From assembly GCA_013391385.1 (NCBI GenBank), contig JACBFI010000013.1, forward strand, positions 18,571 to 82,570: a stretch of DNA of 64,000 nt. Reading direction: 5' to 3'. The DNA comes from Sediminibacterium sp. Gen4 (GTDB lineage Bacteria > Bacteroidota > Bacteroidia > Chitinophagales > Chitinophagaceae). Under the pieces are notes generated by a model that saw nothing but the letters and a program-made list of their open reading frames with translations, searched no databases and was not told the DNA's origin. Positions 31,330 to 58,196 of this stretch are shown here, piece after piece; position 1 is the first letter of the stretch; every line of letters starts with the position of its first letter. The translations under genes were made by a program, and so were the position numbers.

Positions 31330-31476
31330 ATGCGATTTGCTATTGTGGATATCGAGACAACGGGCGGTTTTCCGGAACAACATGGGATGACCGAAATCGC
31401 TATCGTATTACACAATGGTACCGAAGTGGAAGGTAAATATGAGACCCTGATCAATCCCCACCAGGAAATTCCGCCC
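31330..31476 (+). pseudogene. 5' fragment of a DnaQ-type exonuclease / GIY-YIG nuclease gene, split by the element
   Basis: The first 49 codons encode the start of a DEDDh 3'-5' exonuclease. VDIETTGG holds the first two metal ligands (D7 and E9), and the segment ends LINPHQEIPP. After this point the frame continues for 40 codons of element sequence (to 31596) that resemble no protein. Family members continue PPYI, which is exactly what resumes at 57030. The two pieces therefore belong to one gene, interrupted in frame by a 25.5-kb insertion. The 49-residue stub cannot form a complete exonuclease domain. Confidence 0.93.
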
Positions 31477-31483
31477 CACACCA
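31465..31483 (+). other. attL junction
   Basis: Host sequence GAAATTC ends at the shared CGCCC (31472-31476), after which element sequence CACACCACAAAC begins. The base before the shared core is C here and T at the right junction. The crossover core is therefore CGCCC with a mismatched neighbour, as tolerated by Bacteroidota tyrosine recombinases. Confidence 0.75.
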
Positions 31484-31494
31484 CAAACACTAAC

Positions 31495-31534
31495 AAAAAG
31501 CCTTATAAATCAATAATTTATGAGGCTTTTTTTA
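31495..31534 (+). terminator. strong hairpin at the left end of the element
   Basis: A 16-bp stem (AAAAAGCCTTATAAAT at 31495-31510 pairing with ATTTATGAGGCTTTTT at 31516-31531, one G-T pair) has a 5-base loop and a T run. It stands 20 bp inside attL and would stop transcription arriving from the interrupted host gene. The A run on its left also allows function on the other strand. Confidence 0.85.
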
Positions 31535-31537
31535 TTT

Positions 31538-31558
31538 GGGGTACACAGTGGGGTACAC
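31538..31558 (+). repeat. left arm-type repeats GGGGTACAC x2
   Basis: GGGGTACAC occurs at 31538-31546 and 31550-31558, 12 bp apart, followed by TTT. The same pair with the same spacing and orientation occurs at the right end (56886-56906). A weaker copy, GGGTGCACAG, lies near 31659. These are the expected arm-binding sites of the element's integrase. Confidence 0.7.
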
Positions 31559-31596
31559 TTTATTTGGTCCAAATAATTACAAATCAACATTACTAA

Positions 31597-32043: not shown

Positions 32044-32655
32044 TTGAAGCCTACAAAAAAACATATAAAGGATCACGCATTAAAACTCTTTAATGAAAAA
32101 GGATTTGTGAATGTACGTCTACAACATATCGCAGATGCTGCTTTTGTGAGTGTAGGCCATCTTGCGTATCATTTCAAAAATAAAGATTTAATCATTGAAG
32201 ATCTTTATGATGAGTTAAGAAGAAATCAAGAAGGGTTATTGAATAAGTTTAGGGTGGTTCCATTATTTGAAGACATCAACTTTTATTTGATTGAAATATA
32301 TATGCAACAGTCAGAGCATATTTTCTTTTATGCTGATATGCTTGAGGTGTTACGATCATTTCCAGAGATACAAACCAAACATTCCAAACACCTGATGTGG
32401 CAATCTGCACAAATTAAAATGATGATTGCATTTAATTGTGCAAGGGGGTCAATGATAATGTTGACTGACCAACAGCAAGATTATCTTGCATGGCAGTTGC
32501 GCTCTATGATTGATATGTGGCATTATATTAAAAAAACCGAAGGGAAGAATGATGTATTATTACAACATTTTTTGGAAGATATTTGGGGTATTCTAAATCC
32601 ATTTTTTACCGATATGGGTACCAGAGAATATCATCAGCTATCTGGGGGTATATAA
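32044..32655 (+). CDS. TetR-family transcriptional regulator (first of two)
   Basis: A 203-residue TetR-type repressor. The N-terminal helix-turn-helix reads VRLQHIADAAFVSVGHLAYH followed by FKNKDLI. The C-terminal ligand/dimer domain (residues about 60-203) is not recognised. A TTG is the only sensible start, since the next methionine is far inside. The DNA-recognition helix is nearly the same as in the second TetR at 33072, so both may bind the 18-bp palindrome found before hupS and hypA. It is the first gene of the cargo. Confidence 0.85.
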   Translation: MKPTKKHIKDHALKLFNEKGFVNVRLQHIADAAFVSVGHLAYHFKNKDLIIEDLYDELRRNQEGLLNKFRVVPLFEDINFYLIEIYMQQSEHIFFYADMLEVLRSFPEIQTKHSKHLMWQSAQIKMMIAFNCARGSMIMLTDQQQDYLAWQLRSMIDMWHYIKKTEGKNDVLLQHFLEDIWGILNPFFTDMGTREYHQLSGGI

Positions 32656-32668: not shown

Positions 32669-32686
32669 TTAGAGTATTTTTTCTAA
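32669..32686 (+). promoter_or_regulatory. putative hydrogenase-regulon operator 1
   Basis: TTAGAGTATTTTTTCTAA matches the palindrome TTAGAAAATATTTTCTAA at 15 of 18 positions. It lies 14 bp after the first TetR gene and 24 bp before the TTG of the small gene that precedes the second TetR. This is the position expected for autoregulation. Confidence 0.6.
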
Positions 32687-32709: not shown

Positions 32710-33069
32710 TTGTTTTCGAGATTTAAAATTGATTCTGAAGTATATGCTTCCATGTTGAAGTATATTGATGGATTTTCCTCTACTGAAGTAAATGGAATGA
32801 ATGAGGATGCAACATTTATTAATGAAGATTTCTGGCTTCAAAATACCGCAGTAATAGAAAATGTAGAACGCAGGAATGGAGAATGGAATATCTATCTCAT
32901 TTTTGCCCACCACCTTATTCCCCTGAAATTCATAAAGCGCAAGATTGTTAATATGTCTTGCCCCAAAAAAGCATTCCTGACTGCACATTATATGCGCAGA
33001 CAGGCAGCAAAGGATCAAAGAGGAACTTTAGTATTAAATATGAAATTATTCCAAACTAATTTCAGTTAA
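32710..33069 (+). CDS. 119-residue protein of unknown function between the TetR genes
   Basis: The frame opens with TTG (32710), with an alternative ATG at 32752, and ends 2 bp before the second TetR gene, so the two are surely cotranscribed. The protein is not secreted. It has a mixed alpha/beta pattern with WLQNTAVIENVERRNGEWNI and a basic C-terminal half (KFIKRKIVNMSCPKKAF). One cysteine is present. No family is recognised. Its place inside the regulatory unit suggests a partner or modulator of the TetR proteins. Confidence 0.65.
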   Translation: MFSRFKIDSEVYASMLKYIDGFSSTEVNGMNEDATFINEDFWLQNTAVIENVERRNGEWNIYLIFAHHLIPLKFIKRKIVNMSCPKKAFLTAHYMRRQAAKDQRGTLVLNMKLFQTNFS

Positions 33070-33071: not shown

Positions 33072-33692
33072 ATGAGTGGTACAAAAGAAAAAATAATAGC
33101 CGAAAGCAAAGACCTTTTTTTTGAAACTGGTATTGCTAACACTAGGCTACAACAAATTGCAGATGCCTGTAGCATCAGTGTTGGTAACCTTGCCTATCAT
33201 TTTAAAAACAAAGAGACAATAGTTGAGGCAGTGTATGACAATCTCTTTGAAGAATTGTCATCAATTTTATCTCAATATATTAACCATAAGCATTTACAAG
33301 GGTTTGATATTTTGTTTTCCCGACTCTATTTCTTTTATGAACATAATCGGTTTACTTTCAATAATACTTGGGAAATTGAACGCAACCATCCGGAGATTCA
33401 AAAAGAATGGCTCACTGTCAATAATAAAATTCTACAACAGTTAAAACGAAAAATTCAAGTTTGTCAGCAAGATGAAATCTTCAAACCCGAGCCTGTAAAG
33501 GGAAATTATGACTTACTAGCCCACAGTCTACTGATTCTGATCAACAGCTGGATTCCTCAACAAATACTACGACAAATGCCAGTTACAGAGAAATTATACA
33601 AAAATTGTTTATGGAATCTTCTTTATCCAAATTTTTCAAAAAAAGGGGCTTCCATTTATCATGAGATTATTGTCCCCGAAAGATTTATATAA
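33072..33692 (+). CDS. TetR-family transcriptional regulator (second)
   Basis: A 206-residue TetR protein starting MSGTKEKIIAESKDLFFETG. The helix-turn-helix TRLQQIADACSISVGNLAYH is closely similar to that of the first TetR. The C-terminal part differs more, so the two may answer different signals while sharing operators. The gene ends 14 bp before the tandem operators of hupS, the usual arrangement for a local regulator. Repression is more likely than activation because the operators lie close to the hupS start. Confidence 0.88.
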   Translation: MSGTKEKIIAESKDLFFETGIANTRLQQIADACSISVGNLAYHFKNKETIVEAVYDNLFEELSSILSQYINHKHLQGFDILFSRLYFFYEHNRFTFNNTWEIERNHPEIQKEWLTVNNKILQQLKRKIQVCQQDEIFKPEPVKGNYDLLAHSLLILINSWIPQQILRQMPVTEKLYKNCLWNLLYPNFSKKGASIYHEIIVPERFI

Positions 33693-33705: not shown

Positions 33706-33723
33706 TTAGAAAATTCTTTCTAG
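33706..33723 (+). promoter_or_regulatory. putative operator 2 (hupS, distal)
   Basis: TTAGAAAATTCTTTCTAG matches the 18-bp palindrome at 15 positions. It is the first of two tandem sites whose centres are 20 bp apart, about two helical turns, so two dimers could bind on the same face of the DNA. Confidence 0.7.
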
Positions 33724-33725
33724 AT

Positions 33726-33743
33726 TTAGAAATAATTTTCTAA
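33726..33743 (+). promoter_or_regulatory. putative operator 3 (hupS, proximal)
   Basis: TTAGAAATAATTTTCTAA matches the palindrome at 16 of 18 positions and is itself almost perfectly symmetric. It ends 25 bp before the hupS ATG (33769), so it probably overlaps the transcription start. Confidence 0.75.
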
Positions 33744-33768
33744 ATCAACAGTATAAAAACGATTGCTT

Positions 33769-34749
33769 ATGGCTAATGTTTTATGGTTACAAGGTGGTGC
33801 CTGTAGTGGTAACACAATGTCTTTTTTAAATGCTGAGGAACCTACGGTTGTAGAATTGGTTGTGGATTTCGGTGTCAATATTTTATGGCATCCATCCATA
33901 GGTTTGGAGATTGGCCATCAGGTAACTCATCTTTTACATGATATTTTGGCAGGTAAAGTACAAATGGATATTCTTGTTTATGAAGGTTCTATAATTGAGG
34001 GACCGAATGGAACAGGGACTATGAACTATTTCTGCGACAGACCAATGAAAGATTGGGTGAAAGAACTTGCAGCAGTAGCTGGTTATGTAGTAGCCATTGG
34101 AGATTGTGCTACTTGGGGAGGTATCCCAGCAGTACCACCTAATCCTAGTGAAAGTACAGGTATGCAGTTTCTAAAAAAAGAAAAAGGAGGTTTCCTTGGA
34201 GCTGATTATAAATCAAAAGGCGGACTACCTGTTATTAATATTCCTGGTTGTCCTGCGCATCCAGATTGGATTACTCAAATTTTGGTAGCCATTTCTACAG
34301 GTAGAATTGGAGATGTTTTGATTGACGAATTTCATCGTCCTAAAACTTTCTTTACAGATTTTGTACAAACTGGATGTCCTAATGCCATCAGCTTTGCCCA
34401 AAAAATGGATGGTGGCTTTGGTAAAAGAGGCGGATGTCTCTTTTATGAAGTAGGCTGTCGTGGACCAATGACCAGAGCAAGTTGTAACAGAATTTTATGG
34501 AACAGAACAAGTAGTAAGACCAGGGCTAATCATCCATGTCTGGGTTGTACAGAGCCAGGCTTCCCACATAACGATCTTGTAAAAGGTTCTGTGTTTAAAA
34601 CCATGAAGTATCTAGGCTTCTTGCCAAAAGAAGTACCAACTGGTGTTTCCAAACTTGGCTATTATTCAAGAGCCGGAGTTGAAAAGGTAATGGGATCTAT
34701 AGAACGGGTTATGGGAACAGAACAGGAACATTTTGAAACCAGTAAATAA
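33769..34749 (+). CDS. hupS: group 2a [NiFe]-hydrogenase small subunit
   Basis: The 326-residue electron-transfer subunit of an uptake hydrogenase. The start MANVLWLQGGACSGNTMSFL is the group 2a (cyanobacterial HupS / mycobacterial Huc) form. It has no Tat signal, so the enzyme faces the cytoplasm. C12 with N15 replaces the CTGC proximal-cluster motif of group 1 enzymes. Other iron-sulfur ligands are visible in GDCATWGG, IPGCPAHPDWI, GCLFYEVGCRGP, ASCNRILWN and HPCLGCTEPGFP. The ATG at 33769 is preferred to a TTG two codons upstream. hupL follows after 27 bp. Confidence 0.95.
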   Translation: MANVLWLQGGACSGNTMSFLNAEEPTVVELVVDFGVNILWHPSIGLEIGHQVTHLLHDILAGKVQMDILVYEGSIIEGPNGTGTMNYFCDRPMKDWVKELAAVAGYVVAIGDCATWGGIPAVPPNPSESTGMQFLKKEKGGFLGADYKSKGGLPVINIPGCPAHPDWITQILVAISTGRIGDVLIDEFHRPKTFFTDFVQTGCPNAISFAQKMDGGFGKRGGCLFYEVGCRGPMTRASCNRILWNRTSSKTRANHPCLGCTEPGFPHNDLVKGSVFKTMKYLGFLPKEVPTGVSKLGYYSRAGVEKVMGSIERVMGTEQEHFETSK

Positions 34750-34776: not shown

Positions 34777-36375
34777 ATGTCTACAGTAAAAGAACTGAAT
34801 ATATCTCCAGTTGGTCGAGTTGAGGGTGATTTGGATGTGAAAGTCTACATGGAAAATGGAGTTGTTACCCGCGCACACACGCAGGCTGCGATGTTTCGTG
34901 GTTTTGAAAGAATCATGCAGGGCAAAGATCCGCAAAGCGGATTAATTGTAACCCCACGTATTTGTGGTATATGTGGTGGATCGCATTTATATTGTGCATC
35001 CTCAGCTTTAGATACGGCATGGAAGACACAACTTCCTCCTAACGCATTACTTTTAAGGGCACTAGGTCAGGCTACTGAAACAATCCAGAGTATACCCCGT
35101 TGGTTTTATGCCATCTTTGCAACAGATATGGCAAATAAAAAATTTGCAAACAAAAAACTCTACGATGAAGTTGTAAAAAGATTTGCTGCCTATGTAGGTA
35201 CATCATTTCAATCAGGAGTTACTGCCAGCGGTAGACCGGTTGAGGTGTATGCACTTTTTGGAGGTCAGTGGCCGCATAGTAGCTATATGGTCCCTGGAGG
35301 TGTAATGTGCGCCCCTACTTTAAAGGATATTACAAGGGCACATTCCATTATGAATCAATTCAGGAATGACTGGCTTGAAACCACTTGGCTGGGTTGTTCT
35401 ATTGAAAAATACAGAAGGGTACAGAGTTGGGACGACTTAATGGCGTGGGTAGACGAAAATGAAAGCCAACGTAATAGTGATTTGGGGCTGTTCATTAGGG
35501 CTTCATTAGAATTTGGACTTGATAAGTTTGGTCAGGGTTGTGGAAATTATGTGGCTTATGGTACTTATTTGCACAAGGACAAATATAATAATCCAACAAT
35601 TGAAGGTAGAAATGATGCTTTGATTAGTCCTTCAGGATACTATGACAGTCATTCAAAAAAGTATAGCGACTTCGATCATTTGCAGATTAAAGAGCATGTT
35701 ACGCATAGCTGGTATCAGGATCACAAAGCAGCTCACCCATGGGATGAACCTATACCAACTCCAGTAACTTCAAAAAATCTTGAAGAGACTGATTTCAGTG
35801 GAAAATATAGCTGGTCAAAGGCTCCTAGATATATGAATAATGCTGCAGAGGCTGGCCCATTGTCAAGATGTTTAATGTATGCAAAACCAAATAATCTAGA
35901 GCACCAAACCAAGGACTTTCTTATTAAGGATGCCATGGATAAAATGGGACCGAGTGTGTTCTTAAGAACATTGGCGCGTGTGCATGAAGCTCCAATGTTG
36001 TATGATAATATTGATACTTGGTTAAGACAAATCAGGCTCGATGATGAATTTTATATCAAGCCTGAAGAAAGAGATGGTAAGGGCTTTGGAGCTACTGAAG
36101 CGGCTCGTGGCGCATTGGCACATTGGATCGAAATTGAAGATGGGGTGATAAAGAATTATCAGGTAATGGCACCTACCACTTGGAATGTAGGTCCAAATGA
36201 TTCCGAAGGAAAGTCAGGCCCTATTGAATCAGCCCTTGAAGGAATTGAAATTGAAGATGCCAACGATCCAGTTGAAGTTGGTATGGTGGCTCGCTCTTTT
36301 GATAGTTGTTTGGTTTGTACGGTGCATGCACATGATGCCAAGACAGGTAAACAATTAGCTAAGTTCAAGCTCTAA
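34777..36375 (+). CDS. hupL: group 2a [NiFe]-hydrogenase large subunit
   Basis: The 532-residue catalytic subunit, which splits H2 at the NiFe(CN)2CO centre. The N-terminal nickel ligands are in RICGICGGSH (C63, C66). The C-terminal pair is in DSCLVCTVHAHD (C511, C514). The 15-residue tail after H517 is the segment removed by the maturation protease once nickel is inserted. VGRVEGDL near the N-terminus is the conserved L0-type glutamate motif. The lack of a partner cytochrome b gene fits a soluble or quinone-linked group 2a enzyme. A terminator at 36394 follows. Confidence 0.96.
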   Translation: MSTVKELNISPVGRVEGDLDVKVYMENGVVTRAHTQAAMFRGFERIMQGKDPQSGLIVTPRICGICGGSHLYCASSALDTAWKTQLPPNALLLRALGQATETIQSIPRWFYAIFATDMANKKFANKKLYDEVVKRFAAYVGTSFQSGVTASGRPVEVYALFGGQWPHSSYMVPGGVMCAPTLKDITRAHSIMNQFRNDWLETTWLGCSIEKYRRVQSWDDLMAWVDENESQRNSDLGLFIRASLEFGLDKFGQGCGNYVAYGTYLHKDKYNNPTIEGRNDALISPSGYYDSHSKKYSDFDHLQIKEHVTHSWYQDHKAAHPWDEPIPTPVTSKNLEETDFSGKYSWSKAPRYMNNAAEAGPLSRCLMYAKPNNLEHQTKDFLIKDAMDKMGPSVFLRTLARVHEAPMLYDNIDTWLRQIRLDDEFYIKPEERDGKGFGATEAARGALAHWIEIEDGVIKNYQVMAPTTWNVGPNDSEGKSGPIESALEGIEIEDANDPVEVGMVARSFDSCLVCTVHAHDAKTGKQLAKFKL

Positions 36376-36393: not shown

Positions 36394-36421
36394 AAAAAGC
36401 CTAACGAAAGTTGGGCTTTTT
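36394..36421 (+). terminator. terminator or attenuator after hupL
   Basis: AAAAAGCCTAAC (36394-36405) pairs with GTTGGGCTTTTT (36410-36421) around a GAAA tetraloop. It lies 19 bp after the hupL stop and before hupW. It should make structural-gene transcripts more abundant than those for the maturation genes. Confidence 0.88.
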
Positions 36422-36494
36422 CTTTGAGGTAACTAAATTTTTTTTAGCTTTTACCACGAATTTCTACTCTCCTTACATTAATATTGGAATCAGA

Positions 36495-36980
36495 ATGAGA
36501 AGTAAAGCAACAGCCATAATGGGCTTTGGGAATCCCTGTAGAAGTGATGACGCCATTGGTATTTATGTTATAGACCAGCTAAGGAAATATGTCGGTGAAG
36601 AACCCAATATTTCAATATTAGATATGGGTACAAGTGCATTTGAAGTACTTTACCAATTGAAAGGTCATCAAAAAATAATTTTGGTGGATGCAGTCGTAAA
36701 TACAGGAGAGCAGATTGGGACCTTATACAAGGTGCCTGCACAAGAAGTGATGACGGCTCCTCAAGAAGACCCCATGGTTTTCTTGCATAGTATAAAGTGG
36801 GATCAGGCATTGAGCTATGCAAAAAAAATTATGCAGAGCGATTACCCTGAAGATATACAAGTATACCTGATAGCAATTGAAAATACAAAATTAGATATGG
36901 AATTGAGTGACGAAGTAAAAAAAGCTGGAGATAAAGTAGTCCAAATCATTCTTAAAGAAGAACTCTCGTATATAGTTTAA
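36495..36980 (+). CDS. hupW: hydrogenase maturation protease
   Basis: A 161-residue endopeptidase of the HycI/HyaD/HupD/HoxW family that cuts the C-terminal tail from the large subunit after nickel loading. GFGNPCRSDDAIG at the N-terminus is the family signature. LVDAVV and FLHSIKWD carry the likely nickel-sensing aspartate and histidine. A longer frame would begin inside the hupL terminator, so the ATG at 36495 is used. The place directly after hupL implies that HupL is its substrate. Confidence 0.92.
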   Translation: MRSKATAIMGFGNPCRSDDAIGIYVIDQLRKYVGEEPNISILDMGTSAFEVLYQLKGHQKIILVDAVVNTGEQIGTLYKVPAQEVMTAPQEDPMVFLHSIKWDQALSYAKKIMQSDYPEDIQVYLIAIENTKLDMELSDEVKKAGDKVVQIILKEELSYIV

Positions 36981-37001: not shown

Positions 37002-37313
37002 TTGATTACACTTACAAACAGGCACTTGATCATCAGCAACGAGATCGTTGAAAGTATTTTTGGGTTTTCTTCTCAGGTAAACTGGGTATATTATGATGTC
37101 AAGAAAATATTGATGATTGCATCGCAGCATGATGATATTTTTAAAGGCCTGCATAAAACTTCTATGAGTATGCTGAAATTCAAAAACAGTAAAGGTGACA
37201 GAAGTATATCGTTAGAAGAAATGCTGATTGACAACGAACTGGATAGTAGTGATAGGTCATTGGAATTTAATGCAGACGAAAAAATGAAAATACTGACAGT
37301 ACATTTTTCATAA
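37002..37313 (+). CDS. 103-residue protein of unknown function in the hydrogenase cluster
   Basis: A TTG at 37002 opens a 103-codon frame that ends 3 bp before the TPR gene, so the two are cotranscribed. The sequence has beta-strand-like segments (RHLIISNEIVESIFGF, WVYYDVKKILMIAS) and no cysteine, signal peptide or membrane span. I do not recognise a family. Its position between hupW and the TPR gene makes a role in assembly or regulation of the enzyme likely. Confidence 0.7.
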   Translation: MITLTNRHLIISNEIVESIFGFSSQVNWVYYDVKKILMIASQHDDIFKGLHKTSMSMLKFKNSKGDRSISLEEMLIDNELDSSDRSLEFNADEKMKILTVHFS

Positions 37314-37316: not shown

Positions 37317-38789
37317 ATGATTACAATATTTGTTTCGACAGAACTAAGAGAATCAGTAAAAAATCTGATTAATCAGGAGGATAGACTAAATGAATTAGTC
37401 AATTTATCCGTTGAAGACGCTGATGCAATTACAATTAAAGTTTCTTCTATAATTGAAGTGTTACCCGACTGGGAGAATCTGCAACCACCAGTTCTATTTC
37501 CTAGTGTTTCATATAAGGATAAAATTTTACTAGGGATTATTTATGCCAAACTAAATAATTACGAGAAGGCCTATGAGATCTTAGAAGAATATCCGGATAT
37601 ATTACAAACTGTTGATATTTTAAACCGACTCCAAAATTCAGTACCATTTCAAGGATATGAATGGCAATTTGATTCCTTTGAAAATCTGCACAATAAAGCA
37701 ATTGCAATCCACTATGGATCACAGAATGAAAGCGCTTCAAGTTTAGATATAGCAGAGGCATATGAATCTGCCATTAACTGTAGTAAAGAAAAATCAAGAA
37801 GACAATTCACTGCGTATCATCTTGCACAATTTTATCTTGATCAGAATATTGAAGCAAAAGCACTGAATATCATCAATACTATTTTAAATGAATGTGATTC
37901 TCCTAAAATATGCATTGCATTTAAAGATATTCTTTGTAAAATATGGCAGAAAAATTTAGTAGTACCTTATGATGTTAAAGTACTAGGAGAATTGAAGACT
38001 ACATTATGGGAATGCCTAGAATATTATGAGTTGAATGGTAGGATGACAGAAGCTGCAATGATTTTGATGGATGCTACTTATATTGCTACAATTAGCGAAA
38101 GTTTTAGTGAAGCGCTGGGTTATATCAGTAGGGCAATTACCATAATTGAAAAGGAACAACTTCTTGAGCTTCTAGCCCAAGCACAATTTTCAAAGGGAAA
38201 TCTACTCCAAACATGGGCACAAAATGGGAATCCTCAGTTCTATCGGGCAGCAGTTCAATCATATCAGGCAGCATTGAAGACATTTACCAAAGAGGATTAT
38301 CCAGATATTTTTGCTGAAATTCATCATCAATTAGGGAAAGTTTATGCAGAAATTCCAGACGAGGTAAAGAAGAAAGGGGTATGGGCTGCTGTTTCAGTTT
38401 CATCTTTCAACGAGGCACTCAATTATTATAATAAGATTGATTTTCCTTATCAGTTTGCAATGATTTGTAATAGTATGGGGAATGCCTATACCAAATATCC
38501 GGCTGCTTTGCATACAGACAACTTCGATAAGGCACTTGCCTGGTATAGGGAAGCATTGGATATTAGAACCACAGCAACATATCCCTTAGAACGTGTTTTA
38601 ACGCTCTGTAACTATTTAGAAGCTAGCTGGTTTGTTGGAAATAAGGAGGAATTTGACGAAGATCGATTCAACGAAATGATGAATGTAGCTAATGAAATCA
38701 TCCTGCTTAGTAATGATGAGAAGATTCTCAATAGCGCTAAGAATGATATTCAAAGACTAGAAGCGCTCAAGGCAGAAACTCAAAATTAG
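37317..38789 (+). CDS. TPR-repeat protein of the hydrogenase cluster
   Basis: A 490-residue cytoplasmic protein rich in tetratricopeptide-like helices. Recognisable units are AEAYESAINCSKEKSRRQFT, AVQSYQAALKTFTKEDYPDI, FAEIHHQLGKVYAEI and ALAWYREALDIRTTATYPLE. TPR proteins usually hold other proteins together. Their presence in the middle of a maturation cluster suggests a scaffold for HupSL or for the Hyp proteins. The stop codon overlaps the perfect operator upstream of hypA. Confidence 0.8.
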   Translation: MITIFVSTELRESVKNLINQEDRLNELVNLSVEDADAITIKVSSIIEVLPDWENLQPPVLFPSVSYKDKILLGIIYAKLNNYEKAYEILEEYPDILQTVDILNRLQNSVPFQGYEWQFDSFENLHNKAIAIHYGSQNESASSLDIAEAYESAINCSKEKSRRQFTAYHLAQFYLDQNIEAKALNIINTILNECDSPKICIAFKDILCKIWQKNLVVPYDVKVLGELKTTLWECLEYYELNGRMTEAAMILMDATYIATISESFSEALGYISRAITIIEKEQLLELLAQAQFSKGNLLQTWAQNGNPQFYRAAVQSYQAALKTFTKEDYPDIFAEIHHQLGKVYAEIPDEVKKKGVWAAVSVSSFNEALNYYNKIDFPYQFAMICNSMGNAYTKYPAALHTDNFDKALAWYREALDIRTTATYPLERVLTLCNYLEASWFVGNKEEFDEDRFNEMMNVANEIILLSNDEKILNSAKNDIQRLEALKAETQN

Positions 38790-46517: not shown

Positions 46518-46518
46518 T

Positions 46519-50592: not shown

Positions 50593-50637
50593 AATTAATG
50601 TTTTGAAAAATCCCCCACCAAATGGCAGGGGACCTAA

Positions 50638-51510
50638 TTAGATAATTCCGTTTTTGTGAACGGGTAATTGACTTAATAACTTTCGATCATCATCTGCTTT
50701 GATAATGAGCTTTCTTTTTTGACTTTCGAATTCTGGCTTTAGACTCTGCTGAAACTGAGGGAACATCTTGTAAAGGGTAAGTAACTCTTGCATGGATTTG
50801 CATTCGCCAATACGATCTTGCACATCACTTGAATTGATATCAGATCCTGATTGACACCATTCTAAGATGGACTTTCCTACATCAGCCGAAAGCTTCATTT
50901 CAGGTTTACCAAAGAATAATCCGGTCCTGTCTTTAGAGGCTATGGCATTGTTTTTCATATCTAGATCAAACACCAAGGTCATCTCGTAGTCAAGGCCTTC
51001 TCTTTGGACCGATTTCAGCCCAACTTTTTCTGGCGCTACTCGACCATTTTTGTCATTTAGAACGTAATCCTGTTTGGTGCGAACTGTTGAAATCACATGA
51101 AACGGTGTCTGAAGAATCTTCTGTACAAATGCATTGTGTCTTGGAGTAACCTTGTTCCAGTTTGTAAAGGAGTTCCCTTGTAAGGAAGAATGATACTCAA
51201 GCAAATTTTCCCACTCGTGTGTAACGGAATCAATGATTACCACCTCCATTTCTGCTTTCTGACACACATCTAACGCCTGGATGTATTTCTCAGGAGTAAA
51301 AGGACCGGTCAGATTTAGTACTTTGAATGCACCCAAGTGAGCGTACAATTCAGCTGAGTGATTCTCAGTATCAATGACTGCAACTTTACCAAAATCATTG
51401 CATAATCCAAAAGCTATCAGCAACGCTGAATATGTTTTACCTGAACCAGATGGTCCCTGTAATGACATTTTAATTTTTGCTCTTTTTCTTTCTGCTGTTT
51501 GTAATTGCAT
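50638..51510 (-). CDS. RecA-fold ATPase, Sak4-like
   Basis: A 290-residue ATPase. The Walker A loop is GPSGSGKTYSALL and Walker B reads EVVIIDSVTHEWEN. The layout (VIDTENHSAELYAH and VISTVRTKQDYV) is that of phage nucleotide-binding proteins related to Sak4, which promote single-strand annealing. The ATG at 51510 is chosen because a longer frame begins with an unlikely 25-residue leader. It may work with the small protein encoded next to it. Confidence 0.75.
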   Translation of the reverse strand: MQLQTAERKRAKIKMSLQGPSGSGKTYSALLIAFGLCNDFGKVAVIDTENHSAELYAHLGAFKVLNLTGPFTPEKYIQALDVCQKAEMEVVIIDSVTHEWENLLEYHSSLQGNSFTNWNKVTPRHNAFVQKILQTPFHVISTVRTKQDYVLNDKNGRVAPEKVGLKSVQREGLDYEMTLVFDLDMKNNAIASKDRTGLFFGKPEMKLSADVGKSILEWCQSGSDINSSDVQDRIGECKSMQELLTLYKMFPQFQQSLKPEFESQKRKLIIKADDDRKLLSQLPVHKNGII

Positions 51511-51685
51511 AAGTTTAAACTTTAAATGTTTAGAAATAAAAAGAGGACCGGTTGAAACCAGCCCCCTGTTATCCATCAACCACAACTGCCAAGACGCTAC
51601 GAACTACTTGTAGCGATTGATGGTGTTGTGTGTCCTACACTTGGTCGTGTGGGTCCGAGCAGTGTTTTGTGATTGGGTGGATAAT

Positions 51686-52036
51686 CTAGATAGAAGCAAC
51701 TTCATGGACTCTTGTGTGTCCAATTGCATTTTCCACTTTGCTATCCTGAGAATATGCATATGAATGCTGCAGCTTCATTAGCTCTCCTGTTCTTGGGTTA
51801 ACGAAGTCGTAAGGCTCAGTTATGACCTTTACAACCTCTCCAGGAAGCTTTTGACCAATCATTGCCTCTGCAACAATTGCATTGAAAGTGCTGGGAATTG
51901 AGCACTTACGTACAGTCGCGTAATAGCGACCAGTTGTGCTGCTTTGAATCAACTCAACGCCACCTGTGATTTCAAGGGCAATGAATGTGGAACCGTCTTT
52001 ACGTGTTCTTTCTGCGTAACCTGTTACTGTTACCAT
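51686..52036 (-). CDS. small protein, possibly OB-fold/SSB-like
   Basis: A 116-residue protein starting MVTVTGYAERTRKDGSTFIA. The beta-rich pattern (EITGGVELIQSSTTGRYYAT, LPGEVVKVITEPYDFVN) suggests an OB-like fold. Neighbouring Sak4-like ATPases are usually paired with an SSB, which supports this weakly. A longer frame adds 48 poor residues and is rejected. Confidence 0.55.
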   Translation of the reverse strand: MVTVTGYAERTRKDGSTFIALEITGGVELIQSSTTGRYYATVRKCSIPSTFNAIVAEAMIGQKLPGEVVKVITEPYDFVNPRTGELMKLQHSYAYSQDSKVENAIGHTRVHEVASI

Positions 52037-52632
52037 CGTTTGTTTTTTAAATTGTGATGAAATGGATGTTTGGAATCTACCATTAGTCTTGAATAGATAC
52101 AGTTGTGCACCACTGCAAATGTTTATTGACCTTTGGAAGTAAGTTGTATGTAAAGGGAGCATGTTGGGTAGTACAAACACTACTGCTCCATAACTTTATT
52201 TGAGTCTGGGGTTAGATAGAGGATTTAGGAAAGTAGATGTGAGGGGGGATGCGGAGCTTCAAGAAAGAGGGGGGGTAGGTTATGGGGGAACCTATCAAAG
52301 ACTCGAATATAAATATCCTGAAGATGATTAATATATATCGGCATTGTTGAAAATTGCGTAATAAAGTTTACTGCTCCTAAGACTTAGATTAAATTATAGC
52401 TATCTTATCCGTTATGCATACTATTTTTTGCTAATATCTATTTACAAAATAAATTGTAGAGGTAGAATTACTCCTCATATAAACACACTTAAGCAATTTC
52501 ATTTTTCATTAGTTAAATCAAATTTCATCCTCCTGATCACTTAACTGACTTAACTAGGTTAACTAAGGAACTAATTATCAAATTCAGTTAATCGAATTAA
52601 GTCAGTTAAGTAGTACAGAGGTTGACTTACGT
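52037..52632. other. 596-bp gene-free region with inverted repeats
   Basis: No plausible reading frame. It is AT-rich, with a G-rich patch near 52240-52290 and a 15-bp inverted repeat at 52539-52611. It lies between a RepA-like ATPase and the SSB-like gene, so it is a candidate origin of replication or transfer. Confidence 0.5.
52539..52611. repeat. 15-bp perfect inverted repeat in the element
   Basis: ACTTAACTGACTTAA at 52539-52553 is the exact reverse complement of TTAAGTCAGTTAAGT at 52597-52611, with 43 bp between. GTTAACTAAGG-type words lie inside. The repeat is close after the stop of the RepA-like gene. Confidence 0.8.
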
Positions 52633-53694
52633 TTAACTGGGAAGATTAAGTTTGTAATTTCCTTTCTCCGGTTTAATAATTATTCCGTTCTTTTCTAGGC
52701 GCTTTAATGCAGCATGAAGAGTGGGTCTGGTCATAATTCCAGTGTTAACTAGCCGAGCATATAAATCTGCTGTCTTTATAAGAATTAAAGGATCTCCATT
52801 TGTCAACTCACTGAAATGAGTCTGTAAAGTGATATCACTTCCAAATGTTTCATTGGCTGTTGATGAAGACGATAGGATATCCGATTCATAAACCTCCTCT
52901 TCAGCTACTATCATTTGATTTGAGTCAATCGAAAACTTAAGGACAAATTCTGAGTCATCTGGCCAATAACGGTAGGCAACATCTTTGAGGTATCGAATAT
53001 TCTGTGTACTTCGATTAACACCAATCATAAAGTCCATCTCTTGACCAATGACACGTGATCCTGCCATAGTAGCAATTGTTATAGGTCGATCATCCATTTT
53101 CTGTGAATGGTGAATTAAAACTAGTGCTATGTTGTGCTTGTGTGCCATTTCCCTAAAACGTTTCATCAGGCTTGTAGAAACTGCCGAGTCTTCGATTGAA
53201 TCTGTTGTTGTCCTTGTTACTGAGTCAATCATCACAAAGCCAGGTTTTACCCTTTCAATTTCGGCATCCAGCAATTCCCACTGTTCCTCTGTTGTTATAT
53301 ACCTGGCAAACGAATCATCAACCACATATACATTTTCACTCCAGGTCGGGTCCAAATTATACTTACTTGTAAATGCTTCCATTTGTCTAACGTTTCTGAC
53401 AGTCCTACTTCTGTAGTACTCTTCCAAGCTGACTAGCAGCACTCTTCTGTTAACACAGTTGAGATCATCATTTAGAAAACGTGTAAGCCCAGCAGCAATG
53501 CTAAAAGCAAGATTTTCAACCAGCGTTGTTTTGCCGGATTTTGAAGGACCAAAGAAGCATCCAAGGCTTGGGCGTATAATCCCTCTGAAAATTCTAGGAG
53601 GCTCTGGTAATCCCTCAAGTTTTGCCGACATGCAGTCCAGTGTTAATGCAGGTCCTGTGCAATTATCTATTGTTTTTTCTATTGTCTCTTTCAT
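52633..53694 (-). CDS. RepA-like AAA ATPase (hexameric helicase type)
   Basis: A 353-residue ATPase of the AAA_25/RepA type. Walker A is FGPSKSGKTTLVE and Walker B is GFVMIDSVTRTT. ALVLIHHSQK and a C-terminal winged-helix-like part (PTLHAALKRLEKNGIIIKPE) follow. Such proteins start replication or unwind DNA in plasmids and phages. The ATG at 53694 overlaps the stop of the upstream gene by one base (TAATG), which sets the start. Confidence 0.82.
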   Translation of the reverse strand: MKETIEKTIDNCTGPALTLDCMSAKLEGLPEPPRIFRGIIRPSLGCFFGPSKSGKTTLVENLAFSIAAGLTRFLNDDLNCVNRRVLLVSLEEYYRSRTVRNVRQMEAFTSKYNLDPTWSENVYVVDDSFARYITTEEQWELLDAEIERVKPGFVMIDSVTRTTTDSIEDSAVSTSLMKRFREMAHKHNIALVLIHHSQKMDDRPITIATMAGSRVIGQEMDFMIGVNRSTQNIRYLKDVAYRYWPDDSEFVLKFSIDSNQMIVAEEEVYESDILSSSSTANETFGSDITLQTHFSELTNGDPLILIKTADLYARLVNTGIMTRPTLHAALKRLEKNGIIIKPEKGNYKLNLPS

Positions 53695-53987
53695 TATGAA
53701 CATGGTTTGCATTTATGAAATTCTTCAAATACTATTCTTTCCAGTGCCTCGAGGCCCTTTATTTTTACCCGGGTTACGTTTACAGTAAAAGGCGGATTTG
53801 CCTTGTGTATTGTCTTCGTAGATAATTCAAACCATCCCCAGTCGCAGTATTTTTGGTATGGATCATTATTATTCATTAAATACTTTTTCTCTCTCAACCA
53901 GGCAGCGAATTTTTTCTCGCCCCCTGGGAATTTTGTAATCTTTGCCGTTTGTTGTAATGAAAATGTGGTAGCGGATTTAGTTTTCAT
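53694..53987 (-). CDS. KilAC-domain phage antirepressor-like protein
   Basis: A 97-residue protein. FPGGEKKFAAWLREKKYLM, NDPYQKYCDWGWFEL and VTRVKIKGLEALERI match the C-terminal ANT/KilAC domain of phage antirepressors, without the N-terminal Bro/ANT half. It is coupled to the RepA-like ATPase by TAATG. Confidence 0.7.
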   Translation of the reverse strand: MKTKSATTFSLQQTAKITKFPGGEKKFAAWLREKKYLMNNNDPYQKYCDWGWFELSTKTIHKANPPFTVNVTRVKIKGLEALERIVFEEFHKCKPCS

Positions 53988-53993: not shown

Positions 53994-54260
53994 TTAATTA
54001 ACTGAAAAAATATTTGGGTGTATTTTGACTGTACCTGTTTTCAAAAAGCGATCTAGTATAATTAATACGCTTTCATCTTCAAGCGGAATAATTCTATTCG
54101 CTTCGCATCCTAAAGAGATAGGATCTCCGACTGCCAAAAGGGAATAATGGTCGATTTCCATGTCAGCATATTCAGTGCTGCAATCATAGATTGCGAAGTA
54201 CCCATGTTCCTTGTAAAATTGTAGTAACTGATTTGCAGATTTAAATCTTAGTTTTTGCAT
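53994..54260 (-). CDS. 88-residue hypothetical protein
   Basis: A short hydrophilic acidic protein, starting MQKLRFKSANQLLQFYKEHG. No family recognised. It lies 6 bp before the KilAC gene in the same direction and is probably in the same transcript. Confidence 0.6.
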   Translation of the reverse strand: MQKLRFKSANQLLQFYKEHGYFAIYDCSTEYADMEIDHYSLLAVGDPISLGCEANRIIPLEDESVLIILDRFLKTGTVKIHPNIFSVN

Positions 54261-54350: not shown

Positions 54351-54617
54351 CTATTTGGTAGTTGCAGTTGTTGCATTATCAAGATCTGATTTTCTGTAAA
54401 GCAGCCTGCTGCCAATCCTTTGCCCACGTATTCGCCCTTTCTTAGTATGGGTATGAAGAGTTCCAAGGCTGATATCTAAGTATTCTGCGGCCTGCTTTCT
54501 ATTATACAGCGAGTCTTTTGTGGGTTCTGCTGATTTTTTATCAGACAGTACTTTCTGAATTGCTCGCTCAATGATCTCTTCTAGTTCTTTAGCTGACTCT
54601 ATGTTGAATACAATCAT
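54351..54617 (-). CDS. helix-turn-helix protein, excisionase-like
   Basis: An 88-residue protein whose C-terminal half is an HTH_17/MerR-type DNA-binding domain: YNRKQAAEYLDISLGTLHTH followed by GRIRGQRIGSRLLY. In integrative elements, proteins of this type act as recombination directionality factors. The position close to the integrase supports this. Confidence 0.8.
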   Translation of the reverse strand: MIVFNIESAKELEEIIERAIQKVLSDKKSAEPTKDSLYNRKQAAEYLDISLGTLHTHTKKGRIRGQRIGSRLLYRKSDLDNATTATTK

Positions 54618-54738: not shown

Positions 54739-55593
54739 TTATTCACTTATAGAATCTGAATTGTTGATTGGAATTGTAAGTGGGTTGAACTTAAAATCAT
54801 GCTGAGTTCTTTCAAGCCTTTTTTTTGAAGCATGAACAACTCTCATTTGCTGCAGATCAAATGCTTTCTTTACTGCATCATATTTTGCAGCTTGCCCTTT
54901 TTTACCTACCAAAGAAAAATGAAAATTACAGAGGTTAGCAAATTGTCGTACGCTTGAAGCATAAGTGGTATCTACCCAGTTGTTCTTTTTAAGCGTGGAC
55001 ATGAGTTCAGCAAAATCAGTTGTAGAACCCAACCATTTTATTCTTGGATAGTAACCATCAATTATTTTATCCGCTTCAATAGAGCTTGGGAATGCTTTAG
55101 TACACAATTCGATAAAATGGTATTCTAGTTCATATAAATGATCAACATGCATTTTAATTGATTCTTCGACTAGACTTCTTTTACAATCAGAAACATCAAT
55201 TTTACCAGTAGCAAGCATCAGGCTTTGAATCTCTACAGGTATATATTCTTGATGCCTCTGCAGATATGAATTAACAGTTTGCCGTTTGTCCGGAGGAAAT
55301 ATACTCAGTAGCTCACTGACTTTGCTTTTAAATGAAGCAAAAGATTTCTCTTCATCAAAAACAAATGATGGGTCCATCAGCTGCGAAACAAAATTGCTTT
55401 TAAAATCATATTCCTTATTTCCCATCCCTTCCAAAACATCTAATCTTTCTTTGACAGACTGTCGAGCCAGGGAATGTATTTTTACATTTGATTCCTTTTT
55501 TGATTCAAGCAAGGCAATTATACTTTGGGATAATTCAATTTTCTGTTCCTCAAGACTTTTTATCTTCCCAGCTGCGTTGGATGATTTTGGCAT
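54739..55593 (-). CDS. 286-residue hypothetical protein next to the integrase
   Basis: A mostly helical cytoplasmic protein, starting MPKSSNAAGKIKSLEEQKIE with a coiled-coil-like first 60 residues. It overlaps the 3' end of the integrase gene by about 44 bp, so the pair is translated together. The C-terminal half (TLKKNNWVDTTYASSVRQFA) resembles proteins that commonly accompany Bacteroidota integrases. Function unknown. Confidence 0.7.
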   Translation of the reverse strand: MPKSSNAAGKIKSLEEQKIELSQSIIALLESKKESNVKIHSLARQSVKERLDVLEGMGNKEYDFKSNFVSQLMDPSFVFDEEKSFASFKSKVSELLSIFPPDKRQTVNSYLQRHQEYIPVEIQSLMLATGKIDVSDCKRSLVEESIKMHVDHLYELEYHFIELCTKAFPSSIEADKIIDGYYPRIKWLGSTTDFAELMSTLKKNNWVDTTYASSVRQFANLCNFHFSLVGKKGQAAKYDAVKKAFDLQQMRVVHASKKRLERTQHDFKFNPLTIPINNSDSISE

Positions 55594-56824
55594 GATCAAT
55601 AGATTTGACTTTAATGTATCGAAGAAATGCTTTTTCTGTTTTATGACCTGATATTGCCATTATAGATAAAGAAGGCGTTCCTGCAAGATACTCGTTTGAA
55701 CAAAACGATCTTCGTGCGGTGTGAGTTGAAATTAGCTCATTTTTTTTGAACGTTTGCCGAGCTTTTTTTCCTCCTTTAGTTATAGACAACTCCACTTCCT
55801 CATTAAGCGATGGTATCATGGCAGCAATTTCTTTTAATTCCCTGTTGGTAACTTGATTTACTTTTGCTTTTGGCAAAATCCCATTATACTTATCGATTAT
55901 TTTTTTCACCGTCGGATGGATTGGAACGGTTACTGGTTCACCGGTTTTAGCCTGTCTTATCATAATAAATGAATCTTTTATTTCACTCGGTTGGATATTT
56001 TTAAAATCCCCAAACCTGAGTCCAGTTTTACAACCCAAGACAAACAGATCACGTGTTTTATCGAGCTTCTTATGCTTGGATAGGTCAAGCTGATAGATCT
56101 CTTCAATCTCTTTTTCCGTAAGGTATATTGCGTCCGTCTGTTCCTTTATTACAATAAATCGCTTGTTCTTAAACTTCATACTTGTGGTAATCCCGAGTTC
56201 AAGAGCTTCATTCAATACTAACTTGATGATTTGAATATGCTTGCCTAAAGAGTTGTTACTATAGTTCTTTTCCTTAATAAGCCATTCATTGAATTCGTTG
56301 TAGAAATTGAGGTCAAAGTCGGTGAACTTCAGTGCAATATTTTTTTCCTTCTCATACAGCAGTACATTATTACATATAGTAGAATAAGTTTTGATGGTAT
56401 TGATGTGGATTGCATGACCTGTTCTGTGATTAGTTCTTATACCAGTCTTAGAGTCATCAATCATTTTTTTAAAGAATTTGATAAACTCGCCTCGTTCACC
56501 TGCTTTTATTACAAGTGGTCGCAGTTTGCTAGAAATTGCCTCCTGTAGTTTTTTTGGATCAGGAGGGTTTAATCCACTTTCCAGTTCCATTCTTCTAAAT
56601 GTTGTTCGAATAAAATTATCAATGGTGTTTATGCGCTCATTAAACTCTGGATGTTGGGGGAAAGAACGATTCTCTATTACTCGTTGACGTCTCGAACTCC
56701 AATGTGCCGGCTTAATGAATTCATTGATATAAACCTTGACCTTGTTTCCATTATAACAGATGCGGCAAAAAATTGGTCTTGGTCCTTTTGACCTGGTGCT
56801 TTTGAGGTAATAGCTAATTTTCAT
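55550..56824 (-). CDS. int: tyrosine recombinase (element integrase)
   Basis: A 424-residue site-specific integrase. An arm-binding N-terminal part (YYLKSTRSKGPRPIFCRICY) is followed by a SAM-like core-binding domain (about residues 110-215) and the catalytic domain. Catalytic residues are visible: R in CKTGLRFGDF, H-x-x-R in HTARRSFCSN, H in SGHKTEKAF and the nucleophile Y in LRYIKV. It lies 190 bp from attR and faces inward, so it probably carries out integration into the nuclease gene. Confidence 0.95.
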   Translation of the reverse strand: MKISYYLKSTRSKGPRPIFCRICYNGNKVKVYINEFIKPAHWSSRRQRVIENRSFPQHPEFNERINTIDNFIRTTFRRMELESGLNPPDPKKLQEAISSKLRPLVIKAGERGEFIKFFKKMIDDSKTGIRTNHRTGHAIHINTIKTYSTICNNVLLYEKEKNIALKFTDFDLNFYNEFNEWLIKEKNYSNNSLGKHIQIIKLVLNEALELGITTSMKFKNKRFIVIKEQTDAIYLTEKEIEEIYQLDLSKHKKLDKTRDLFVLGCKTGLRFGDFKNIQPSEIKDSFIMIRQAKTGEPVTVPIHPTVKKIIDKYNGILPKAKVNQVTNRELKEIAAMIPSLNEEVELSITKGGKKARQTFKKNELISTHTARRSFCSNEYLAGTPSLSIMAISGHKTEKAFLRYIKVKSIDHAKIIQRSWEDKKS

Positions 56825-56874
56825 GGTTTGCAGATTTAATGAATTAATGAAAGAGATTTGTTTTTGTAACCCAA

Positions 56875-56906
56875 GGGTACATTGAGGGGTACACCAGGGG
56901 GTACAC
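56875..56906 (+). repeat. right arm-type repeats GGGGTACAC
   Basis: GGGTACA at 56875-56881 and GGGGTACAC at 56886-56894 and 56898-56906, followed by TTT. The last two have the same 12-bp spacing and orientation as the pair at the left end (31538, 31550). They lie just upstream of the integrase gene. Confidence 0.7.
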
Positions 56907-57014
56907 TTTCCCTGTTTTTATCTGCATTTATTTGAATTTCTTTACAATTAATCATGTCGTAGGGTAGACATAAATAACTGTAAATAAGCACAATTAGTTG
57001 TAAATCAACAATTT

Positions 57015-58196
57015 ATGCACAGTTCGCCCTATATCGCCAATATGACCGGTATTTCAGATGCCATGGTTGCCAAAGCACCCTCATTTGAAACGGTAGCTCA
57101 AGAAATTTATAACCTTTTATCGGGGCGGATATTTGTAGCACATAATGTAAATTTTGATTATTCTTTTGTGAAGTATCATTTGCAAAAAGCGGGTTATCAA
57201 TTACATGTGCCTAAACTATGTACGATCCGACTCAGCCGGAAAGTATTTCCGGGGTTTCGCAAATACGGTTTGGGGCATCTCTGCCGGGAACTGGATATTC
57301 ACATCACCCATCGTCACAGGGCAGGGGGAGATGCGCTGGCCACTGCACAGATTCTGGACATGGTGATACAGAACAATGGGGAACGTTTGATCAAAGAAAT
57401 GCTGAAAAAAGACAATCATGGTCAAACCCTACCCGCACACTTGCCGGAAAAGCAGGTAATGGGCTTACCGCAAAAACCCGGAGTGTATTATTTCCATGAT
57501 CAAAAGGATAAAGTACTCTATGTTGGTAAAGCCAAAAATCTAAAGAAAAGAGTGATCAGTCACTTTACCGGATTGGACATCAGTAAAAAAAGACAAGAAC
57601 TTTTACGAACTGTCTATCGGATATCTTATGTGGAATGTCCAACAGAATTCATCGCCTCATTATTTGAAAGTGTTGAGATCAAAAGGCTTTGGCCGATTCA
57701 TAATAAAAGTCAAAAAAGATTCGAACAAGTTTGGGGTATTTATCAGTTTGAAGATAACAGGGGGTATATCAGATTGGGAATTGATAAAAAGAGAAAACAT
57801 TTACAACCCATTGCTTGCTTTGCTTTACTGGCAGATGCACATCGTATGTTATGGAAACTGGTAAAAATGCATGATTTGCATCCTGCGCTTTGTTTTCTCG
57901 ATTTAACAGCGCAACATATATGGCCTGATGTGCAGGAGTATAATCAGCGTGTACTTGCCGCGCTACAATGGGTCGCAGAACAGAAAGAAACTTTTGTGAT
58001 TCGAGATCAATCGGCATATGTGTTGGTAGAAAACGGAGTCTTTTATGGAATGGGAACAGCTTCTACAGATATTGGGGTTCATGAATTAGAGGCATTGAAA
58101 GAGCAATTAACCATGTATCCCGAAAATGAAGTCATCCGTTCCATGATCCGAAATTATACAGAACGCTATCCATCCAAAGTCATCCGTATCGCATAA
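57015..58196 (+). pseudogene. 3' part of the split DnaQ/GIY-YIG nuclease gene
   Basis: From 57030 the host frame continues PYIANMTGISDAMVAKAP, the middle of a DEDDh exonuclease, with H/D ligands later (HNVNFDYSFVK, HRAGGDALATAQ). A GIY-YIG nuclease domain follows from about residue 150 (PGVYYFHDQ, LYVGKAKNLKKRV). The C-terminal part resembles UvrC-like and Cho-like proteins. An ATG supplied by element sequence (57015) adds five residues (MHSSP), so a 393-residue product with the GIY-YIG part could still be made. It would lack D7 and E9 and so lack exonuclease activity. Confidence 0.9.
57018..57036 (+). other. attR junction
   Basis: Element sequence CACAGTT runs into the shared CGCCC (57025-57029), after which the host frame resumes with TATATCGCC. 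About 25 bp earlier the sequence TTGTAAATCAACAATTTATG resembles TTATAAATCAATAATTTATG at 31503-31522 near attL, a second pair of end repeats. Confidence 0.75.

Follow-up and report, generated by a model that had tools for sequence, protein, structure and literature searches.

The element and the host gene that it interrupts

The 64-kb stretch of DNA analysed here (the window, whose positions serve as coordinates throughout) comes from Sediminibacterium sp. Gen4 (Chitinophagaceae; genome G000) and contains, between positions 31472 and 57029, a segment of 25.55-25.6 kb that splits a host gene and carries hydrogenase genes, regulators and a tyrosine recombinase. We consider it very probable that this segment is an integrative element bearing a complete group 2a uptake hydrogenase with a TetR/operator control circuit, and that it moves with borrowed transfer machinery. 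The features at its two ends are as follows.

31330..31476, + strand: 5' part of the host gene, a DnaQ-type exonuclease fused to GIY-YIG, in frame with 57030-58196
31472..31476: left junction core CGCCC (CGC alone common to both known sites), from junction comparison
31495..31531, + strand: terminator-like hairpin of 16 pairs (3 G-C) followed by a T-rich run, starting 23 bp inside the left end
31538..31558, + strand: left GGGGTACAC direct-repeat pair, candidate integrase arm sites
56886..56906, + strand: right GGGGTACAC repeat pair, from the repeat count
57025..57029: right junction core, from junction comparison
57015..58196, + strand: 3' part of the host gene, 393 aa from an ATG supplied by the element, with about the first 49 residues lost

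CGCCC is present at both ends (31472-31476 and 57025-57029), and the joined flanks encode a single uninterrupted 437-aa protein with RNase_T exonuclease (DnaQ-type) and GIY-YIG domains, which bears out the coordinates and the host-gene interruption given by an earlier reading of the letters alone (the sequence-only reading). The end repeat GGGGTACAC, also anticipated there, occurs exactly four times in the 64 kb against 0.11 expected, as one pair per end, with starts at 31538 and 31550 on the left and 56886 and 56898 on the right, all in the same orientation and 12 bp from start to start; the left pair recurs in the second copy described below, and the pairs are candidate arm sites of the integrase. 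GC content is 0.352 in the element against 0.395 in the flanks. A chance junction repeat was rejected, since reading frames are restored on joining and empty alleles exist, as was a tRNA-targeted island, the tRNA search of the window having found none.

The hairpin at the left end, which a separate repeat scan also picked up as an inverted repeat, is weak when taken alone (7 such sites in the 6 kb scanned against 4.1 expected). At the right end, the ATG within 57015-57029 is in frame with what remains of the interrupted exonuclease gene, which could still give rise to a protein shorter by about 49 residues.

A second copy at another locus, and the distribution of the element

Scanning the contigs of named genomes with the HupL alignment returned, as its first match, the metagenome-assembled genome (MAG) Sphingobacteriales SW22112_bin_1 (G302, also present as G349, listed as the same genus; contig JAAXIF010000031.1). 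Identity between this contig and the window begins exactly at 31472, and over 31472-57027 the two copies differ by two substitutions (31951 and 49934) and one 2-bp gap; by contig, this is one substitution in 17,059 bp, and one substitution plus the 2-bp gap in the 8,501 bp of a second contig, which holds the right part of the copy. The integrases are 100% identical. In G302 the insertion sits in a different gene, which we read as an M16 peptidase (a label given by reading). That gene is uninterrupted in G000, as one 935-aa frame with the empty site TTTCTCGCTTACC, and the exonuclease/GIY-YIG gene is in turn a single open frame in G302. In both genomes homology of the element starts and ends on the junction bases. 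The flanks are far less alike: the 14,998 bp aligned in the neighbourhood of the exonuclease gene are 91.5% identical (88.3-93.9% by block; a baseline drawn from alignment blocks of at least 200 bp in one fetched contig portion, window 1-21291 giving no such block), and those around the M16 locus about 88.7%.

A near-identical element in different genes, with reciprocal empty sites, means that a single element was recently transferred into separate loci of the two species G000 and G302. The comparison with relatives that the sequence-only reading had proposed thus found neither one locus everywhere nor a want of empty attB alleles, but empty alleles in both directions, and the proposed search for the island at different loci found the same element at a second locus in another species. 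Together, the empty sites and the second locus decisively support a mobile element with a complete group 2a set. Across the genus, the host gene was matched in 16 of 61 genomes at E<=1e-60 (G000 included in both figures), and the insertion point is uninterrupted at the G302 locus and at 14 of the 15 read from congeners (15 of 16 in all), the remaining one starting at a contig edge.

The junctions also bear on the core. At the M16 locus the junctions and the empty site have only (T)CGC in common, so that CGC is the core shared by the two sites, and the integrase therefore tolerates differing core sequences. The CGCCC reported earlier as a shared junction holds at the exonuclease site; as a fixed core it was rejected, because the second insertion site differs.

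Could the element have been joined to the wrong flanks in one genome, as an assembly or binning artefact? G302 is a MAG whose copy is divided between two contigs, which would invite this view, but both junctions fall on the exact ends of the element with a shared core, and the gene split in each genome is continuous in the other. The break itself is accounted for: the G302 contigs break off within a foreign, insertion sequence (IS)-like stretch, which has the inverted ends TGTARGCTCCCC and a duplicated GAGG and lies at 48527-48530, within the outer-membrane-like gene 48068-48649. We regard an artefact as highly improbable. We give still less credit to an old, vertically inherited insertion since lost by most of the genus. 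The divergent HupL of G355 (72% identical) does show that the genus had such enzymes more than once, yet the element is 99.99% identical where the flanks are 88-94% identical (differing by 6-12%), it occupies different loci, and the targets are intact both ways; for this copy vertical inheritance was rejected on those grounds.

Recent transfer of one element also has to be set against its rarity. Integrase DNA was found in 2 of 147 genus genomes and HupL in three of the same 147 (G000 included in each), the third being G355, whose HupL (C23:638702-640279) is a divergent group 2a sequence that groups with that of G075 in the HupL tree. Within the family Chitinophagaceae, HupL is present in 6 of 244 genomes, own included, a patchy distribution. 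Our survey of other hup loci covers the 40 of at least 20 kb among 78; its counts for nicO, orf78 and bfn are low (10-11) and are to be read with flanks that end at 10 kb. None of the 40 loci contains the element's integrase, nor its excisionase, RepA, AAA_24 or extracytoplasmic function (ECF) sigma genes, and one has a RadC-like match. The suggested spread among heterotrophic Bacteroidota is therefore shown for two species of one genus only, and the integrase is missing from all 40 other loci. A plasmid copy was rejected, there being no near-identical DNA in the plasmid collection for 31472-56400, and a virus copy likewise, the viral contigs holding no relative of the integrase.

The hydrogenase cassette and its probable regulators

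The left and central parts of the element encode the enzyme, its maturation proteins and several companions, all on the + strand.

33763..34749, + strand: HupS/HucS-like small subunit of the [NiFe] hydrogenase; the true ATG probably lies a few codons further in
34777..36375, + strand: HupL/HucL-like group 2a large subunit, from Protein Data Bank (PDB), plasmid and tree comparisons
36411..36980, + strand: HupW-type maturation protease (TIGR00072 above cut-off from residue 36; HycI), true start probably internal
37002..37313, + strand: orf103, the 103-aa protein after the protease
37317..38789, + strand: tetratricopeptide repeat (TPR)-like protein, below the Pfam cut-off
38876..39220, + strand: HypA (Pfam)
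39226..39939, + strand: HypB (TIGR00073 above cut-off)
39946..42330, + strand: HypF (TIGR00143 above cut-off)
42335..42604, + strand: HypC (TIGR00074 above cut-off)
42615..43712, + strand: HypD (Pfam/NCBIfam)
43736..44791, + strand: HypE (Pfam/NCBIfam)
44807..45880, + strand: NHL-repeat protein (family scan; Sphingopyxis alaskensis homologue E=5e-61)
45882..46517, + strand: NicO-like membrane protein, possible nickel transporter
46483..46719, + strand: orf78, small cassette protein, linked in other loci, no Pfam match
46745..47296, + strand: bifunctional-nuclease (BFN/DUF151) family protein with UVR motif (Pfam)

The HupSL-HupW-HypABFCDE set named by the sequence-only reading is confirmed by Pfam and NCBIfam. 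In a single-sequence search of the PDB, HupL matches Huc at E=8e-202, all other PDB sequences being weaker than 1e-100; in a profile search Huc leads by more than 500 bits and the others are no better than 5e-70. HupS, too, has Huc as its closest match of known structure, well ahead of the rest. Huc, from Mycobacterium smegmatis, is a group 2a [NiFe] hydrogenase (PDB 7UTD; PMC10017518). The likeness lies in the alignment of both subunits (512 residues of HupL and 306 of HupS) and in conserved positions: the cysteine motifs are kept, as are the residues matching Tyr229 and Tyr301, which contact menaquinone in Huc, and the one matching Lys212, all read from the alignment with a +1 numbering offset. 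HupL also contains the motif, including DSCLVCTVH, and the C-terminal tail that we take to be the criterion for such a subunit, with 15 residues beyond the final His of the C-terminal motif and the HupW protease encoded alongside. Among 39 plasmid records with HupL relatives, 17 are at least 54% identical and the other 22 at most 36%; the 17 comprise two Bacteroidota records (82% and 75%) and 15 from elsewhere at 54-58% (S. alaskensis 57.2%). On these alignments the window's HupSL is classed as group 2a and Huc-like, nearest to the known 2a members and far from the others compared, in a reference set where the papers name only S. alaskensis and Huc as group 2a and groups 2e and 2f lie outside the comparison.

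In the HupL tree (88 of 91 rows, three duplicates dropped; a quick method with SH-like approximate likelihood-ratio (SH-aLRT) support and two outgroup rows) the window falls in a five-row clade with support 100, alongside three family (Chitinophagaceae) rows and one Bacteroidetes row. A Bacteroidota-associated HucL radiation, in 34 Bacteroidota genomes, is described by Islam et al. 2020 (PMC7784904). The window's HupL stands among Bacteroidota HupL in our tree and its cassette has a similar order, the paper's own clade lying outside the comparison.

The companion genes (protease, 103-aa protein, TPR, NHL and hyp) are all present beside the window's HupSL, and several of the six genes left unassigned by the first reading prove to be companions of group 2a enzymes elsewhere. 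The S. alaskensis plasmid has relatives of the TPR protein (E=4e-22), the NHL protein and, at profile level, the 103-aa protein in matching order; there the orf103 profile matches the protein at the same position with E=2e-4 among 14 proteins. In the 40 other hup loci, orf103 is found in 39 and the TPR gene in 40. The cassette genes recur without the element's mobility genes, and the hup cassette is thus a recurrent Bacteroidota unit that the element picked up. The AlphaFold model of orf103 has a predicted local distance difference test (pLDDT) score of 97 and no PDB match with E<=0.001; orf103 may represent a hitherto undescribed small fold associated with group 2a hydrogenases. The gene at 45882-46517, earlier called a nickel permease, has only sub-threshold NicO and DsbD_2 matches, and its assignment rests on linkage to the cassette.

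Two side observations concern the cassette in other loci. In L103, L106 and L111, HupS is 92% identical to the window's and HupL 80-82%, a mismatch that suggests recombination between hupS and hupL. The cassette of G207 (L061+L024+L025) is permuted, with hupW...bfn first and then TetR1-orf119-TetR2-hupS-hupL; hyp/bfn genes precede the TetR genes also in L100, L103, L114, L115, L120, L121, L129, L130 and L153.

Upstream of hupS lie the two regulators of the earlier reading, both of the TetR family and placed on either side of a 119-aa protein, together with a palindrome that recurs within the cassette.

32044..32655, + strand: TetR-family regulator 1 (TetR_N E=2.2e-9; PF13972 above cut-off)
32669..32686, + strand: operator-like palindrome with 2 mismatches before orf119/tetR2, weak alone
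32710..33069, + strand: orf119, encoding 119 aa, with a TetR gene on either side
33072..33692, + strand: TetR-family regulator 2 (TetR_N E=5.8e-10)
33706..33743, + strand: two tandem operators before hupS, 20 bp apart (33706 with 1 mismatch, 33726 exact)
38786..38803, + strand: exact operator palindrome before hypA, from the motif scan

The 18-bp motif TTAGAAA-N4-TTTCTAA was derived from the perfect inverted repeat before hupS. Within 150 bp upstream of hupS it is present exactly in 42 of 72 regions from Bacteroidota loci, and with at most one mismatch in 57; shuffling gives no match, and positions picked at random in these loci give about 0.95 per 72. The 72 regions come from 82 loci, the window included; ten loci dropped out because hupS was not matched or had less than 150 bp of DNA before it. 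L082 has the window's own sequence, and L083 and L085 repeat L023 and L024, so these three were excluded. Because the motif was chosen with some upstream regions already in view, these counts come in part from the sequences behind that choice; this does not apply to the whole-genome search. The 82 loci, 1.43 Mb in all, contain 155 sites; 148 of these precede cassette genes by no more than 250 bp (hupS 92, hypB 23, hypA 16, orf119 11 and others 6). Genome-wide, exact sites number two in G000 and two in G302, all within the element, and none in the 11 other congeners examined, including G355 with its divergent hydrogenase; this search took in 13 hand-chosen genomes, and a reversed control pattern matched once, in G087. 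At the stringency of two mismatches, which admits the site before orf119, four sites were found against 1.24 expected, and 6 of 100 shuffles reach four.

Site and TetR gene tend to occur together: of 79 loci, 57 have both, 4 a TetR gene only, 4 a site only and 14 neither (p=6e-9, a value that is too small, as related loci are non-independent and the 'no TetR' class includes short contigs). A stricter table of 53 loci, with at least 6 kb upstream of hupS, 250 bp searched and the window and L024 kept by hand, gives 45, 1, 2 and 5 in the same order (p=4e-5). From this association it may be inferred that one or both TetR proteins bind the palindrome. A relative of orf119 lies upstream of hupS in 32 of the 40 loci; this and the TetR counts near hupS given below replace earlier figures of 35, 37 and 35, since the TetR queries cross-match and orf119 also matches a paralogue after orf103. 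orf119 itself has no Pfam or PDB relative, and its low-confidence model (pLDDT 72; best PDB match E=0.016) was left uninterpreted. A promoter scan of the DNA was uninformative (23 matches against 23.3 in shuffles) and left unused, and no RNA element reached its gathering score. For mycobacterial Huc, the direct transcription factors are still to be identified according to a 2026 paper (PMC13098282).

Mobility genes, route of transfer and significance

The right-hand part of the element runs on the - strand from the integrase through a replication and recombination module (50146..53987) to a second cargo of low GC content (47487-49784; 0.296), which separates the hydrogenase cassette from the mobility genes.

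55550..56824, - strand: tyrosine recombinase (integrase), with Arm-DNA-bind_5, SAM_5 and Phage_integrase above cut-off
54739..55599, - strand: orf286, between xis and int, no family above cut-off
54351..54617, - strand: excisionase-like HTH_17 protein (Pfam; PHROG excisionase)
53994..54260, - strand: orf88, no Pfam or PHROG match
53694-53987, - strand: KilAC (Pfam/PHROG)
52633-53712, - strand: AAA_25 RepA/DnaB-like ATPase (Pfam/PHROG)
51686-52180, - strand: orf164, with a relative in the G019 region
50638-51585, - strand: AAA_24/Sak4-like ATPase (Pfam/PHROG)
50146-50592, - strand: RadC-like protein (Pfam)
49314-49784, - strand: ECF-type sigma factor, second cargo (Sigma70_r2/r4_2)
48689-49306, - strand: probable membrane protein, second cargo, named by reading sequence
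48068-48649, - strand: outer-membrane-like protein, second cargo, named by reading sequence
47487-48011, - strand: small secreted-looking protein, second cargo, named by reading sequence

With three Pfam families above cut-off, the integrase bears out the tyrosine recombinase placed at one end by the first reading; the start of its gene faces the right end, so that it reads inward. The right-hand genes look phage-derived (KilAC, DnaB/primase-like, Sak4-like ATPase and RadC). In the second cargo, genes other than the ECF sigma factor match no family above cut-off, and the cargo is absent from all 40 other hup loci. A defence island was rejected after eight proteins compared with PADLOC gave one weak stretch only (the RepA-like ATPase, E=7.6e-5).

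Integrases of the same Arm-DNA-bind_5/SAM_5 type head Bacteroidota regions with unrelated genes; a xis-like helix-turn-helix protein lies beside the integrase in 11 of 15 such regions, with at least one open reading frame (ORF) of unknown kind between in 9 of 15. The element differs from these in its cargo and mostly in its replication genes, and the best integrase identity outside G302 is 47%. orf286 has no sequence match to the same-position proteins in seven related integrase regions, and homology is therefore not claimed for it. The G019 region (L185-L186) has relatives of the RepA-like protein, orf164 and AAA_24 (43-64%), together with another integrase and large repeat-protein genes. Elsewhere in the window, at 5499-5711, a 68-bp unit is repeated 3.1 times with 95% matches.

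How such an element passes between cells is the less certain part of our reading. If the element were a phage satellite, like the phage-inducible chromosomal islands (PICIs), a helper phage would package it; its Int, Xis-like, KilAC, RepA/DnaB-like and Sak4-like genes are indeed of phage type and no relaxase was recognised, but neither was any packaging or capsid-interference gene, the viral contigs hold no relative of the integrase, and a satellite of 25 kb, 15 kb of it metabolic cargo, would be out of the ordinary. We think this unlikely, if by no means negligible. Rather better placed, although still short of an even chance, is an integrative mobilizable element whose unrecognised origin of transfer (oriT) is used by a resident conjugative element. 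Bacteroidota are rich in mobilizable elements, and at least one region with a related integrase, G223, has proteins that on reading resemble relaxase/Mob; against it, Pfam and PHROG scans of the element found no relaxase/Mob family, oriT not having been searched for.

In the broader reading that we prefer, an integrative element with borrowed transfer machinery, the tyrosine recombinase would excise and integrate the element at loosely specified CGC-core sites, of which comparison shows the insertions, and the excised circle would carry the attP joint GCACAGTTCGCCCCACACC. Movement from cell to cell would be by borrowed conjugation, phage or DNA uptake, borrowed because no transfer machinery was recognised in the element. 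Once in a recipient, one or both TetR proteins would bind the 18-bp palindrome before hupS, before hypA and perhaps before their own operon, and the enzyme would draw electrons from H2, perhaps at concentrations as low as the atmospheric one, and pass them to quinone, as its homology to Huc and its quinone-contact residues suggest.

Several points weigh against this reading. Only two genomes are known to carry the element, at least one of them a MAG in which the copy is spread over two contigs, with the break at the IS-like insertion, and no circular form or attP was seen. The scans recognised no relaxase, coupling protein, type IV secretion system, terminase, portal or capsid gene, a negative that covers 29 of 31 proteins by Pfam, HypB and HypC by NCBIfam and ten right-hand proteins by PHROGs, with overlapping ORFs outside it and no oriT search. 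The 'self-contained package' of the sequence-only reading is supported for the complete hydrogenase gene set but not for transfer. H2 oxidation is predicted from homology; no Rieske protein (HucE) was matched by Pfam among the 29 element proteins scanned, and no HucM relative was found, the orf119 and orf103 profiles (the two compared) failing to match HucM in the PDB set. The architecture of quinone delivery may therefore differ from that of Huc. On the side of control, TetR binding is predicted from related loci that are not independent, four of 79 loci have a site with no TetR gene in the available DNA and four the reverse, and the TetR pair is common without being universal (at least two TetR genes near hupS in 25 of the 40 other loci, one in 10 and none in 5).

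Set beside known systems, the island differs from Huc in its lack of a detected Rieske protein or HucM-like stalk, in being mobile and in its two linked TetR genes, and from other Bacteroidota hup loci in its integrase. Plasmids with the same hup/hyp cassette include the F plasmid of S. alaskensis, whose host consumes H2 to sub-atmospheric levels with a group 2a set (PMC10305171), Runella slithyformis pRUNSL01, which has the same TetR-orf119-TetR-hupSL order as the element, and a Hymenobacter psoromatis plasmid with no TetR or orf119 relative near hupS; these are replicons, not integrative, and none has near-identical DNA. Passage of hydrogenase sets from one strain or species to another by way of mobile DNA is reported for the Alteromonas flexible island or plasmid (PMC5217437, PMC4119200) and for the Methanococcus MIC island (PMC12667266), which involve other hydrogenases, other movers and other phyla. 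Hydrogenases on mobile DNA, plasmid-borne group 2a sets included, and group 2a enzymes in Bacteroidota (PMC7784904) are thus already known. Among the matches listed in searches of the open-access literature (12 of 622 in one case) we found no report of a hydrogenase-carrying Bacteroidota integrative element, of its two loci or of the operator; the TTAGAAA-N4-TTTCTAA operator before hupS in Bacteroidota loci is newly described here.

The chances seem to us evenly balanced that the element moves a self-regulated H2-oxidation regulon, with enzyme, maturation proteins, probable nickel import and a private TetR/18-bp switch, aided by phage-type replication and borrowed transfer; a single integration could then give a naive heterotroph the capacity to oxidise H2, perhaps even at atmospheric levels. 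The operator supplies a testable regulator, and its motif could locate further H2-oxidation cassettes and serve in asking which signal controls them. Oxidation of trace or atmospheric H2 is a widespread energy source of aerobic bacteria with a patchy distribution here, and one element present at different loci of two species provides a direct mechanism for the gain of H2 use in a single step.

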